41,306 nt of DNA from an uncultured Anaeromyxobacter sp. (GTDB lineage: Bacteria; Myxococcota; Myxococcia; Myxococcales; Anaeromyxobacteraceae). The notes under the pieces are model-generated. The model worked only from the letters and a program-made list of their open reading frames with translations. It did not search any database and was not told where the DNA came from. A program made the translations under genes and the position numbers. The stretch covers positions 1 through 41,306 of the forward strand of contig CAIOAK010000125.1 of assembly GCA_903855945.1 (NCBI GenBank). The letters run 5' to 3'. Positions 12,753-17,223 of the stretch are shown here, piece after piece; the stretch's first letter is position 1, and each line of letters starts with the position of its first letter.

Positions 12753-14417
12753 CTACTGGATCACGAGCACCAGGGTGACCCCGGCTGGAACCACCACCCC
12801 GCTGCGGGCATACGTCGTTCGCCCGGCCGCGACGGTGTCGAACTGGTAGGTGTGCGTCGTGGCGGCGAAGGTCGCCCCGAGTGAGGTGGCAGTCGCGGGA
12901 CGGTTGCTTGCGTAGCCCGAGAGATCGACGGCCGCCAGGGTGAGCCCGCTGGTGCTGATCCTCGGGAATCCATACCCCCCCGGCGTCCCCGCGACGGGGA
13001 GAAGCCCGTACAGGGTCGCTCCGAGTCGCGCGTACTCGTCGTCGAGCCCTGCGCCGCCCCGTTCCCGGATCAGGGCATCCACACAGGCATAGCCACTCAG
13101 GGTCGGTGCGCAGTCCACCATGCTGGAGTAGATGGCCAGACCGTATCGGCGGTTGAGGAAGGCGCCGAGAGAGCCGCCCGCAGCGTAGGAGGCGTTGCCC
13201 AGGTTGACCCAGTGGATGAGGCTGACGGCCCCGCCGCTGGCGATGAGCGGCTTGATCCGGTTGTCCGGGATCTTGGCGTAATGGTCCGGCGTGACGGAAG
13301 GGGTGATGGCGTCCTCCGTCATCATCGCCGCCATCTCCGTCAGCCAGGTATCGTAGGGGGCGTTGTGCTTCACCGTCCGCTGGTAGAAGTCGGTCATGTG
13401 CGTGAGTTCGTGCAGCAACGTGGAGCTGTAGTAACCCCGGTTCGATTTCACGCCCGGTGCATTGATGAAGAATGCCAGGGACTCGTTGGAATGGTCGAAC
13501 GACGTGCCGTCCACGGACGTGTAACCGTGCAGGAAGTTGTTGTAGCTGGTGAAGTAGCCGCCCCATCCCGTCGAGGAGGGCACGTTCAGGAACACGATGT
13601 TGACATCCTGGAGGGCGCTCCCCGAATCCTGGATGAGCACCGTCGGCCAGTTCGCCGCATACCCTCCCCACACGTCGCCACGAAGGTCCGTGACGAGGTC
13701 ATATCCGGCGGACGTCCCGCAGAAGGTCGTCTGGAAGTAGGCGAGGTCCGCTTCCGTCACGTTCCCGGCCGACGTCGCATCGGGGTCCACCCAGAAGATG
13801 GCCTTGCGCCCCGTGGGAAGCGAGCAGACCTTCCTGGCCACGGTCGAATAGAGCACCGGCGACGCAAGGCTCTCGAAGACGTCGTTCCAGGTTCGATGCG
13901 CTCCGACGTCCGGGGTCGCCCTTGGAGATGGAACGGCTCCGTCGCGTGATGGCAGCAGGCGAAGGCCGTTCGCCAGATCTCGCTCCCGTTCCAGGTGAAC
14001 CGCGTGAGCCTGGTCGCGAGCGTGTTCGGACCGTTCCTCGTCGAGGGGCATGGCGGGAGCGGGTGCACTCGAGGCCACCGAGGCGATGGCTCCCGCGGAT
14101 GGCAACGTCGCGGACGATTCCTGACCGTTCGAGAACAGGAGGATCGCGCTCTTTCCCCCCGTCACACCGCTGATCGAGATGTGTGTGGTGGTCGAGGAAC
14201 CCGAGTCGTTCCTGTAGCGCCAGATGCCCACGCCCGAGCCGGAATAGGTGGAGCCGCTCGTCGCACCGCACGACTCACCGGAGCAGGCGACCTCCAGGCT
14301 GGTGGTTGCGGCCGCCACCGTCAGCGTCGAGGACGCCGTCGAGTTCCCTCCGCACGCCAGGACGGCCGTACTCGCCAGGGCGGCGACGAAGAGCGGGAGC
14401 CTGCCGAAGGGGTGCAT
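12753..14417 (-). CDS. M30-like zinc metalloprotease lipoprotein
   Basis: A 554-residue secreted protein. It has a lipoprotein signal with Cys22 after VLA. A Ser/Thr-rich beta domain follows (about 25-110), then a charged linker and a metalloprotease domain. The motif HELTHM has zinc ligands His336 and His340 and catalytic Glu337. Glu361 in DTWLTEMAAMM fits the third ligand, in the spacing of hyicolysin-type (M30) peptidases. A beta-sandwich-like tail (about 480-554) may bind substrate. It probably degrades extracellular protein, which would suit a predatory or scavenging bacterium (inference). Codon choice is visibly less GC3-biased than in the neighbours, suggesting transfer or relaxed selection. 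No good ribosome site precedes the ATG. The charged stretch around residues 125-175 is continuous in frame, not a frameshift. Confidence 0.82.
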   Translation of the reverse strand: MHPFGRLPLFVAALASTAVLACGGNSTASSTLTVAAATTSLEVACSGESCGATSGSTYSGSGVGIWRYRNDSGSSTTTHISISGVTGGKSAILLFSNGQESSATLPSAGAIASVASSAPAPAMPLDEERSEHARDQAHAVHLERERDLANGLRLLPSRDGAVPSPRATPDVGAHRTWNDVFESLASPVLYSTVARKVCSLPTGRKAIFWVDPDATSAGNVTEADLAYFQTTFCGTSAGYDLVTDLRGDVWGGYAANWPTVLIQDSGSALQDVNIVFLNVPSSTGWGGYFTSYNNFLHGYTSVDGTSFDHSNESLAFFINAPGVKSNRGYYSSTLLHELTHMTDFYQRTVKHNAPYDTWLTEMAAMMTEDAITPSVTPDHYAKIPDNRIKPLIASGGAVSLIHWVNLGNASYAAGGSLGAFLNRRYGLAIYSSMVDCAPTLSGYACVDALIRERGGAGLDDEYARLGATLYGLLPVAGTPGGYGFPRISTSGLTLAAVDLSGYASNRPATATSLGATFAATTHTYQFDTVAAGRTTYARSGVVVPAGVTLVLVIQ

Positions 14418-14546: not shown

Positions 14547-14567
14547 AGGCCCCCGAGTAGGGGGCCT
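14547..14567 (-). terminator. Rho-independent terminator after tRNA-Ala
   Basis: On the minus strand the stem AGGCCCCC / GGGGGCCT (8 bp, loop TACTC) is followed by TTTCTCTTTTCT. It lies 14 bases beyond the tRNA 3' end and closes the rsmB-coiled coil-tRNA unit. Confidence 0.85.
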
Positions 14568-14581
14568 GAGCTCTTGCTATT

Positions 14582-14657
14582 TGGTGGACCCGACCGGGAT
14601 CGAACCGGTGACCTCCTGAATGCCATTCAGGCGCGCTCCCAGCTGCGCCACGGGCCC
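14582..14657 (-). tRNA. tRNA-Ala, anticodon GGC
   Basis: A 76-base cloverleaf with a genome-encoded CCA end. The acceptor stem GGGCCCG pairs with CGGGTCC and contains the G3:U70 wobble pair that identifies alanine tRNAs. The anticodon arm is CCTGA-ATGGCAT-TCAGG, with GGC at 34-36 reading codon GCC. The T arm is ACCGG-TTCGATC-CCGGT. GCC is expected to be among the commonest codons in such a GC-rich genome. It lies 15 bases after the stop of the 89-residue gene on the same strand and may be processed from a longer transcript. Confidence 0.97.
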
Positions 14658-14672
14658 GTCTATGTCTGCGGC

Positions 14673-14942
14673 CTAGGCCGCCTCTTCCTCCAGGCGCCGG
14701 AGCTGCTCCCGGAGCGCCTGCAACTGCTTGGCGAGGGTGTCCACCTCCGCGAGGAGGTTCCGGAGATCGTCCGGCACACCCGCCACACCCTCTCGAGCCA
14801 GGGTGTAGTACCGCTCGCCCAGGTCCTGCAAGCGCTGATCGAGCTCCCTGCGGGCGAAGGCGGCGTCGAGCTTCTGCTTGCCGGCCTGCGAGCGCCGCAC
14901 GATGCGGTCCCGGATTCCGACGAAAAAGTTGCTCAGCGCCAC
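14673..14942 (-). CDS. Small coiled-coil protein of unknown function (89 residues)
   Basis: An 89-residue soluble protein. It has a short amphipathic N-terminus (MALSNFFVGIRDRIVRRSQ), a basic helix, and a C-terminal heptad pattern (LLAEVDTLAKQLQALREQLR) ending in acidic residues. It is likely a homodimeric coiled coil. I do not recognise a named family. The GTG start is supported by AGGGAGG 6 bases upstream. The gene sits between the rsmB-like gene (54 bp upstream) and tRNA-Ala (15 bp downstream) on the same strand, so it is probably co-transcribed with both. A link to translation or ribosomes is only suggested by that context. Confidence 0.78.
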   Translation of the reverse strand: MALSNFFVGIRDRIVRRSQAGKQKLDAAFARRELDQRLQDLGERYYTLAREGVAGVPDDLRNLLAEVDTLAKQLQALREQLRRLEEEAA

Positions 14943-14996
14943 GTCACCCTCCCTGCGCGGGCGAATCCCTGCATACCCCCGACGGGAGGGCGCTTT

Positions 14997-16304
14997 CTAA
15001 CGCGCCCCCCGGTTCCCCGTCAAGCGGCTTCGCCGGCCCGAACCGCTCTTCCGGCGCGTCATCCTGGCCAGGTAGAAACCCGCTCCCTCGTCCCGGTGGG
15101 GCCAGCGCCGCTCCTCGATGGAGAGCCGGAATTCGGGGTTCCCGGCCAGGAACGGGTGCACGACGTCCTCCCCCTCCTCCCGGAAGAGCGAGCAGGTGGC
15201 GTAGACCAGCGCGCCCCCGGGTCGGACCCGCGCGGCTGCGCCACGGAGCACCCCCAGCTGCAGTTCGTGGAAACGGTCGATCGCCCCGTCGTCGATGCGC
15301 CACCGGGCGTCGGGCTCCCGGGCCAGCGCCCCCGAGCCGCTGCAGGGTGCGTCCACCAGCACGCCGTCGAACTCCCCCGAGGGCTCCTCGCGCGACACCT
15401 CGACGACCGCCCCGGCGCGGTGGGCCCGGCGCGGCAGCTCGGCGAGGCGGCGCGCGCTCGAATCCCACGCCGTCACCCGGGCCCCGAGCGCGGCGAGCGC
15501 CAGCGACTTGCCCCCGCTCCCCGCGCACAGGTCGAGCCACCCCACCCCTTCGGCCGGGGCGCAGACCTCCACCACCCGCTGGCTCGACTCGTCCTGCATC
15601 TCGGCCATCCCGTTCCGCAAGGGCGGCGCGTCGAAGAGCCCGGCCCGGTCCTCCACCCGGAGCGACCAGGGACCGTCACCCGGGCGGGAGGCGATCCCGG
15701 CCGCGGCGAGCGCCCGCATCGCCCCCTCGCGGGAGCCCCGGGCCATATTCACTCGTAGTGATATGCGCGCATCCCGGTTGAGCGCACCCATGCAGGCCTT
15801 CGCCTCGGCCGGCCCCAGGTCGCGCAGCAACTTCCGGGCGAAGTCGTCGGGGACGCTGGAGGACAGGCCGAGCGCCACCACCGGATCCGACGGGGGCGCG
15901 AGGGCTCGCCCCTGCGCATCGACCGCGAGGGGCCCCTCCGGGCCTGGGCGCGGCAGCCCGCGGGCCACCCGGAGGACCTCGGCGCCGGAGATGGCCCGGG
16001 GGCGGCGAGGGCCGGGGAGCCGGAGGTCGTGGGCCGCCGCGTCGGGAAGGTCCCCGAGCACGGCCACGCGCCAGGCGAGGTAGCGGAGGAGCGACCGGTC
16101 GGCGGGGATGCATCGGGGGGCACCGGCGCGGATGAGCGCGGCGTCCACGACCCGGAGCCAGCGCGCCACCGCACGCGCGGCCGCGGCAGCGTGACGCCGC
16201 TCCTTGGGACCGATGCCGGGGTGCTCCGCGAGGGACCGGGCGAGCGCGAGACGCAGCGGACGCCCCTCCCCCAGCCCGTCCACGGCCGCCAGCGCCGCCG
16301 CCAC
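14997..16304 (-). CDS. rsmB: RsmB/NOP-type rRNA (cytosine-5) methyltransferase
   Basis: A 435-residue SAM-dependent RNA m5C methyltransferase, probably acting on 16S rRNA. The N-terminal ~130 residues are a NusB-like helical domain with a decayed sequence. The Rossmann methyltransferase domain has the SAM loop WLDLCAGSGGKSLALAALGA. It also carries both family cysteines, in VDAPCSGSGALAREPDARWR (motif IV) and YATCSLFREEGED (motif VI, nucleophile). The frame is open far upstream, but through the 35-residue gene. The GTG at 16304 (MAAALAAVDGLGEG) begins where NusB-like homology starts. No clear ribosome site is visible, so the start is uncertain. A palindrome copy at 15745-15764 forces the codons ATA TCA CTA CGA GTG AAT ATG. 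Confidence 0.86.
   Translation of the reverse strand: MAAALAAVDGLGEGRPLRLALARSLAEHPGIGPKERRHAAAAARAVARWLRVVDAALIRAGAPRCIPADRSLLRYLAWRVAVLGDLPDAAAHDLRLPGPRRPRAISGAEVLRVARGLPRPGPEGPLAVDAQGRALAPPSDPVVALGLSSSVPDDFARKLLRDLGPAEAKACMGALNRDARISLRVNMARGSREGAMRALAAAGIASRPGDGPWSLRVEDRAGLFDAPPLRNGMAEMQDESSQRVVEVCAPAEGVGWLDLCAGSGGKSLALAALGARVTAWDSSARRLAELPRRAHRAGAVVEVSREEPSGEFDGVLVDAPCSGSGALAREPDARWRIDDGAIDRFHELQLGVLRGAAARVRPGGALVYATCSLFREEGEDVVHPFLAGNPEFRLSIEERRWPHRDEGAGFYLARMTRRKSGSGRRSRLTGNRGAR
15745..15764. repeat. Interspersed palindrome, copy 3
   Basis: ATATTCACT-CGT-AGTGATAT inside the rsmB-like gene, nearly a full 20-base palindrome. With GCC before it, the plus strand GCCATATTCACTCGTAGTGA differs at one base from the coding-strand context of copy 1, in an unrelated gene 10 kb away. 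Confidence 0.7.
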
Positions 16305-16342
16305 TGCGCGGCGGGAGCGAAGCTCGCGGGAGCGGGGACGAC

Positions 16343-16450
16343 CTACTTCTTGGTGGTCTTCTTGGCCGCCTTCTGACGCTTGCGGCGGGCCTTCCACGCC
16401 TGCTTCTTCCTGGACTTCTGGCGGATGTGCTTGCTCTTGGAACGCGCCAT
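16343..16450 (-). CDS. Lys/Arg-rich microprotein (35 residues)
   Basis: A 35-residue open frame that begins MARSKSKHIRQKSRKKQAW and continues with KARRKRQKAAKKTTKK. About half of its residues are Lys or Arg, with no hydrophobic core beyond one Ile and one Trp. The ATG has AGGAG 7 bases upstream (GACGAGGAGATCCCG), better than most starts here. It lies 38 bp before the rsmB-like start on the same strand. Such composition fits an RNA- or ribosome-binding peptide like the very small accessory ribosomal proteins. I recall similar unnamed MxRSKSKH peptides in related genomes, but cannot verify that. Function is unknown; the translation context is suggestive. Confidence 0.75.
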   Translation of the reverse strand: MARSKSKHIRQKSRKKQAWKARRKRQKAAKKTTKK

Positions 16451-16516
16451 CGGGATCTCCTCGTCGATTCGGGCCGGAAAGCGGCACATCCATAGCACGT
16501 TCGCGGCGGCGCGCCA

Positions 16517-17041
16517 CTATCCCTGGGCGACGCGCGTGGTGCTCGCGCCCGGGGGCGCGGGGGACATCGGGAAGGCATGGGTGGCCACCACCTCGACCTT
16601 GGTCACCACCTTGGCGTCCACCACCTGCGTGTCGGCGAAGATGTCGCCGATGCGGATGCCGAGCCGATCGGTCCAGACCATCCAGGCCTCGAAGGCGATG
16701 ACCGGCAGCCCCACGAGCAGGAGCAGGATCCAGCCCAGCGGCATCACGTAGAAGAGCGCCACCAGCGCGAAGTCGGCGTTGCGGAGGAACGACTCCTTGT
16801 AGGAGACCGGGGCCTTCCCCGGAATGTGCATGGCCCGGACGCCGAAGATCCGCTTCCCGGGCGACTGGCCGTGCAGGAGCCCATCGGCGACGAGCAGGTA
16901 GATGACGGCCAGGACCGCACCGAGCTCGTGGCCGAGCGTGGCGAGCCCGAAGGCGACGAGGAAGTCCACCCCGCGCGCGAGCCCCCGGAGCCAGAGGTCG
17001 GCCTTGGGATAGGGCGAGCCATCGGGTCGCGCGTCGCGCAT
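16517..17041 (-). CDS. RDD family membrane protein
   Basis: A 174-residue inner-membrane protein. The RDD domain begins at LWLRGLARGVDFLVAFGLA (about 16-34; the usual R-D-D positions are R19, R23 and D27). Two more hydrophobic segments are AVLAVIYLLVADGLL (about 43-58) and ALVALFYVMPLGWILLLLVG (about 94-113). The conserved GQSPGKRIFGVRA loop lies between them, and DRLGIRIGDIFADTQVVD follows. RDD proteins are small membrane proteins, some linked to ion transport; the substrate here is unknown. The ATG overlaps the stop of the upstream DUF4177-like gene (TGATG), so the two are translationally coupled. Confidence 0.85.
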   Translation of the reverse strand: MRDARPDGSPYPKADLWLRGLARGVDFLVAFGLATLGHELGAVLAVIYLLVADGLLHGQSPGKRIFGVRAMHIPGKAPVSYKESFLRNADFALVALFYVMPLGWILLLLVGLPVIAFEAWMVWTDRLGIRIGDIFADTQVVDAKVVTKVEVVATHAFPMSPAPPGASTTRVAQG

Positions 17042-17223
17042 CAGTTCCTCGTGAAGAAGAGGTACGCCATGGCCGGTCGGTGCGAGCCGTCTCGCATGAC
17101 GAAGTGGATCGACTGGAAGTTCCACCCCTGGGCGGTGCGGTCGTTGAGCGCCCGGGCGAGCGTCTCCTCGGTGACCGGCGCCACCTCCACGACCTCGTAT
17201 CGGATGGAGCCGTCCCCCGTCAC
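17041..17223 (-). CDS. Small DUF4177-like protein (60 residues)
   Basis: A 60-residue single-domain protein. A beta strand (IRYEVVEV), a helix ([17 protein letters not shown]), then two strands ([11 protein letters not shown] and [12 protein letters not shown]). The helix-then-GW pattern followed by strands is typical of the DUF4177 family, whose function is not known. It begins with a GTG overlapping the hemB stop (GTGA) and ends overlapping the RDD gene start (TGATG). It is thus locked between two coupled neighbours. A similar-sized strand-helix-strand-strand protein occurs at 34968-35156. Confidence 0.8.

Follow-up and report, generated by a model that had tools for sequence, protein, structure and literature searches.

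A conserved single-copy family of basic 35-residue proteins in Myxococcota as a candidate for a small ribosomal protein

Overlooked ribosomal proteins and the locus in the window

Bacterial ribosomes are taken to be well characterised in their composition, but bS22, bL37 and bL38 came to light only when structures were solved. In actinobacteria bS22 is a very basic helix of 33 amino acids that lies deep in the 30S subunit between helices h27, h44 and h45 of the 16S rRNA, and bL37 occupies a pocket near the tip of the 5S rRNA (PMC10085706). In the Borrelia ribosome bS22 and bL38 were found though they were unannotated (PMC10618245). Here we describe a gene from the experimentally tractable myxobacteria that provides a concrete, sequence-defined candidate for another overlooked protein of this kind. 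It is located on a contig of an uncultured Anaeromyxobacter sp. (assembly GCA_903855945.1, contig CAIOAK010000125.1), of which the whole analysed stretch of 41,306 nucleotides is referred to as the window. Based on its promoter and its predicted shape, we consider the 35-residue product to be a candidate for a small lineage-specific ribosomal protein or a constitutively ribosome-bound protein, with a probability of about 0.58. If true, this would bear on how ribosomes acquire lineage-specific proteins as well as on ribosome-targeting antibiotics in and from myxobacteria.

The gene is the first of five elements on the minus strand of the window, followed by an RsmB-like open reading frame (ORF), an ORF for an 89-residue protein, a tRNA-Ala(GGC) and a terminator (Table 1). 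This arrangement, including a clear terminator at its end, is as the first-pass annotation of the window had described it. Just past the terminator and on the same strand lies a gene for a peptidase M30-family protein (12753-14417; PF10460, 1.9e-41) with a signal-peptide-like start. The spacings of 38, 54, 15 and 14 nucleotides that had been given between the five elements are correct for an RsmB start at GTG 16304, but the 38-nt gap rests on a start codon that is not conserved. At this position L044 and L045, two sister species, have ATC and L047 has GTC, and the frame of RsmB continues upstream without a stop through the gene of the 35-residue protein, which makes GTG 16304 a doubtful start. 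The next in-frame start upstream, GTG 16397 (ATG in L044), is situated within the latter gene. Translation of RsmB may actually begin within the 3′ end of this gene, in which case the two genes would overlap in different frames.

Table 1. Features of the locus on the minus strand of the window, and related loci outside it.
Feature	Position	Strand	Basis
-10-like promoter element TGCTATGGAT of the 35-residue protein gene	16488-16497	-	direct reading; recurs upstream of relatives
GC-rich discriminator GTGCCGC, downstream of the -10-like element	16481-16487	-	direct reading
Shine-Dalgarno site AGGAG of the 35-residue protein gene	16457-16461	-	site of at least 4 nt in 57/58 family members
35-residue protein MARSKSKHIRQKSRKKQAWKARRKRQKAAKKTTKK, candidate small ribosomal protein	16343-16450 (including stop codon)	-	conserved single-copy family; predicted helix
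RsmB/F-family 5-methylcytosine RNA methyltransferase, start codon uncertain	14997-16304	-	PF01189; motifs
89-residue two-helix coiled-coil protein, order-level family, GTG start	14673-14942	-	homologues; structure model
tRNA-Ala, anticodon GGC	14582-14657	-	
Intrinsic terminator hairpin, then TTCTCTTTTC (T-rich tail)	14547-14567	-	
MANSKSKQ-type loci	L066:7989-8102; L067:7983-8096; L069:6215-6325; L072:8001-8117		

The assignment of the second element as an RsmB-like enzyme holds at the level of the RsmB/F family. Its translation matches PF01189 (4.4e-32) and contains both catalytic cysteine motifs, DAPCSGSG and ATCSLF, while the scores stayed below the NCBIfam RsmB equivalog cut-offs (149.6 bits vs 269 for TIGR00563 and 185.7 vs 540 for PRK14901). 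The modification made by RsmB itself, 16S m5C967, is a possible product of this enzyme. The 89-residue protein belongs to an order-level family with the conserved core RDxVVxRSQIGKxKLDxxxxRR. Distant relatives occur outside the window's family in families f6 and f9, of which f6 does not have the gene for the 35-residue protein. The structure model shows helices at residues 2-50 and 58-88 (pLDDT 93), and a scan of viral contigs with this protein gave no match.

Conservation of the 35-residue protein

Conservation in relatives shows the 35-residue frame to be a real gene, present in one copy in its own genome. Used as a single query, the protein found relatives at E-values of about 1e-10 within the genus and mostly 1e-4 to 1e-9 within the family, and the family profile reached about 1e-6 to 1e-18 across the order, values which exclude chance. 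Full-length matches in relatives begin at the same methionine. Thus both the sequence and its start, on whose conservation the first-pass annotation had made its reading depend, are conserved.

Profile searches detected the gene in 134 to 139 of 195 Myxococcota genomes. Within the order of the window it was present, as a single copy, in 126 of 145 genomes; 12 of the 19 genomes without it are assemblies of at least 200 contigs, and the remaining seven constitute the whole of families f3 and f6. In these two families and in most genomes outside the order the profile search did not find the gene. The matches within Myxococcota but outside the order numbered 13, about 12 of them clear and one (G067) marginal. 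A second phylum was reached via contig L085, which had been matched in a nucleotide contig scan, and was told apart from the phylum of the window by its genome count (82 vs 195) and by match coordinates. Twenty of its 82 genomes match at E <1e-3 and 25 at E 0.1, and the loci read there are clear members, for example MARSKSKQRRMRMKRRQKRKARAKRRKAALK. The contig scan, performed for MA[RN]SKSK[HQ], yielded 155 nucleotide matches, of which 5 were confirmed with the first query sequence used. By a rough estimate about 34 matches are expected by chance in 257 Gb, and the remaining ones are probably mostly from Myxococcota.

The members share the start pattern M-A-[RN]-S-K-S-K-[HQ]-x-R. Order-level members begin with MA[RN]SKSKHxR, members from other classes with MANSKSKQKRVRMQRKIKAKARNKRKKA and similar sequences, and across both phyla the positions M1, A2, S4, K5, S6, K7 and R10 are nearly invariant. 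Differences in the first ten codons within the window's family amount to 49, 49 and 118 at codon positions 1, 2 and 3, respectively, a pattern of purifying selection at the N-terminus, and a pN/pS of about 0.4 was obtained within the genus. The Shine-Dalgarno sequence of the gene in the window ends 6 nt upstream of the ATG. As previously stated in the first-pass annotation, about half of the protein is lysine or arginine (18 of 35 residues), and the Lys/Arg share of the members is about 40-50%. Long Lys/Pro/Ala/Glu-rich C-terminal tails were identified at L056:8001-8210 (70 residues in total) and L059:8001-8288 (96 residues in total), the latter with repeats of the KAEKAEKPEK type, but most members of the family have no such tail.

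The protein of the window gave no meaningful Pfam or NCBIfam match. Likewise, 0 of 28 and 0 of 36 aligned members matched Pfam, nothing meaningful was obtained from NCBIfam, and the family profiles had no match among PDB sequences up to E = 10. The members form a genuine protein family for which none of the searched libraries has a model. In PMC papers the string MARSKSKH was not found, and text matches to SKSKH looked irrelevant. AlphaFold2 predicted a single helix for residues 5-34 (mean pLDDT 89); such an isolated helix gives few hints of its partners.

Gene neighbourhood and promoter

The usual gene order upstream of the peptide gene across the order is hemB, an RDD protein, an ATP-grasp protein and a peptidase S58, whose frame ends about 30-150 nt before the peptide gene. 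Comparison of positions 16517-17125 of the window with L046, L050, L061 and others revealed that the ATP-grasp and S58 genes are absent from this place in the window's genus, where the RDD gene adjoins the peptide gene. Downstream genes vary by family and include an AI-2E transporter, a HAD hydrolase and others. Outside the order, Myxococcota members of the MANSKSKQ type (Table 1) share a different neighbourhood, with acyl carrier protein and glyA genes downstream of them. The second phylum has yet other, unrelated neighbours; in two genomes there, a tRNA-Gly(CCC) (L108:5879-5952 and L109:5876-5949) precedes the peptide gene on the same strand, the latter starting about 50 nt after it.

The two small proteins had been described as locked into a translation-themed unit, which applies to the window's genus, but elsewhere the neighbours differ and are mostly genes without a role in translation. 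The MARSKSKH start, for which a survey next to rsmB in other Myxococcota had been suggested, is conserved in the form M-A-[RN]-S-K-S-K-[HQ], but among the loci examined RsmB directly follows the peptide only in the window's genus and in L047. A conserved operon with rsmB is thus unsupported beyond these loci. In the window's family a tRNA-Ala(GGC) was found 0.1-2.4 kb downstream of the peptide in 9 of 9 loci examined, often accompanied by the gene for the 89-residue protein, and only in this family does the latter occur near both the peptide and the tRNA-Ala. Because the neighbours change, the peptide is independent of them, and the unit is a local arrangement and no conserved module.

Upstream regions of the peptide gene in the order often contain a TGnTAnnnT-like -10 element, after which come a GC-rich discriminator and a leader of the CTTT type. 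In E. coli, growth-controlled promoters are associated with GC-rich discriminators. The same promoter design was found in ten of these genomes for rpsT (S20) and rpmB (L28). We scored the upstream regions with a matrix of 20 nt that was built only from 20 rpsT/rpmB sites, with 17,492 windows as background. The 95th background percentile was exceeded by 17 of 33 peptide upstream regions and the 99th by 9 of 33, compared to 7% and 2% of upstream regions of neighbouring genes and 9% and 2% of shuffled peptide upstream regions; as these counts come from related genomes and are not independent, we take them as support and not as a formal test. The likeness to rpsT/rpmB is enriched in the peptide set but not universal, and the 20-nt promoter stretch of the window itself, with a score of 4.1, falls between the 90th and 95th background percentile. 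When the rpsT/rpmB promoter was written as a strict regular expression, 11 of 33 peptide upstream regions fitted it vs 1.5% of background windows; the result used here is that of the matrix. Taken together, the promoter sequences point to a ribosomal-protein-like regulation of the peptide.

Candidate functions and comparison with known ribosomal proteins

Several lines of evidence support the reading as a ribosomal protein. The gene is single-copy, its start stays the same in two phyla although its neighbours are unrelated, and the invariant residues S4, K5, S6, K7 and R10 go beyond general charge. Further support comes from purifying selection on the N-terminal codons together with the near-universal Shine-Dalgarno site, from the rpsT/rpmB-like upstream regions and the predicted single helix, and from the precedents of bS22, bL37 and bL38 (PMC10085706, PMC10618245). 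The sequence-level traits expected of a small lineage-specific ribosomal protein were found, in that the protein is conserved, single-copy, small, basic and, by sequence evidence, translated. Counting against this reading are the histone-H1-like Lys/Pro/Ala-rich tails in some members and the absence of the gene from two families of the order and from the majority of genomes outside it. Searches of Pfam, NCBIfam, PDB sequences and the bS22/mS38 profile found no homology of the family to ribosomal proteins at accepted thresholds.

The sequence evidence would be identical for a ribosome-visiting factor, i.e. a small basic protein for assembly, hibernation or rescue that binds rRNA transiently and is not structural, and some bacterial ribosome-visiting factors are indeed small and basic. 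However, the promoter resembles those of rpsT and rpmB rather than that of a stress gene, even if this match is statistical only, and the gene is near-constant in the order; we regard such a factor as unlikely. A slightly lower probability is given to a nucleoid-associated or histone-H1-like peptide that binds DNA via its general charge. The high Lys/Arg content would agree with it and the tails in L056, L059 and others keep it alive, but what is conserved is a specific N-terminal motif and not the charged tail, which most members do not possess, and the promoter is ribosomal-protein-like. These two are the main rivals of a ribosomal protein.

Two further possibilities carry far less weight. 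bS22 corresponds to PF08213, the AURKAIP1/COX24 domain, with mS38 in mitochondria and eL41 as structural analogue. A diverged bS22 of this COX24_C family would agree in length, charge and single helix, and PF08213 exceeded its cut-off in 0 of 41 relatives searched, so that the bS22 pocket may be free in these genomes. Yet no member of the 35-residue family matches Pfam, and in the comparison with the bS22/mS38 profile 51 of 200 column shuffles reached the observed score. Given the empty PF08213 search and a profile comparison no better than shuffles, homology to bS22/mS38 was rejected, and this origin is considered highly improbable. The least probable reading is that of a peptide acting as leader or translational coupler of the gene downstream. 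It could draw on the rsmB frame that is open through the peptide gene in the window's genus, with a start that may overlap, but the protein is conserved beside many different downstream genes and across two phyla. These changing downstream genes largely refute a leader peptide, which we rejected.

As a ribosomal protein, the peptide would lose its initial methionine and could then dock with the stretch A-[RN]-S-K-S-K-[HQ]-x-R in a specific rRNA pocket, while its basic helix would run along the rRNA and neutralise phosphate charge, as with bS22/eL41 and bL37. The gene would be transcribed from its own growth-type promoter, and in the window's lineage the transcript could continue through rsmB, the coiled-coil gene and the tRNA-Ala to the terminator.

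Among the known systems, bS22 shares with the family a length of 30-40 residues of which about half are Lys/Arg, a single helix, a clade-restricted occurrence and the fact that it was missed by annotation. The conserved residues are nevertheless different. bL37 and bL38 are similarly small, clade-restricted and were overlooked until structures or mass spectrometry became available, but did not match the family in the PDB sequence search. bS20 (rpsT, PF01649) differs in its length of about 90 residues vs about 35-40, shows no match past residue 12, and each genome checked also has a normal rpsT. Profiles of bS20 (PF01649, TIGR00029) hit no aligned member at E 0.1, with one member at E 0.33 to TIGR00029, and the hhalign probability was only 6%. 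On the other hand, the promoter architecture is similar and the first 10-12 residues align suggestively in register (MAN[ST]KSxxKRxR vs MA[RN]SKSK[HQ]xR), as displayed by the alignment of the starts, MANTKSAEKRNR. In post hoc comparisons, 0 of 500 shuffles with the initial MA fixed reached the score of the N-terminus against bS20 of the same genomes, and in a set of 49 E. coli proteins, almost all of them ribosomal, bS20 ranked first, its score being reached by 4 of 300 shuffles. We take this in-register likeness as a hint in favour of rRNA binding and not as homology. Tentatively, and with less confidence than in the candidate as such, the family might represent an undescribed ribosomal protein, stoichiometric in the ribosome across most of one Myxococcota order and a second phylum, which would not descend from bS22, bL37 or bL38 and whose N-terminus would perhaps be derived from, or convergent on, that of bS20.
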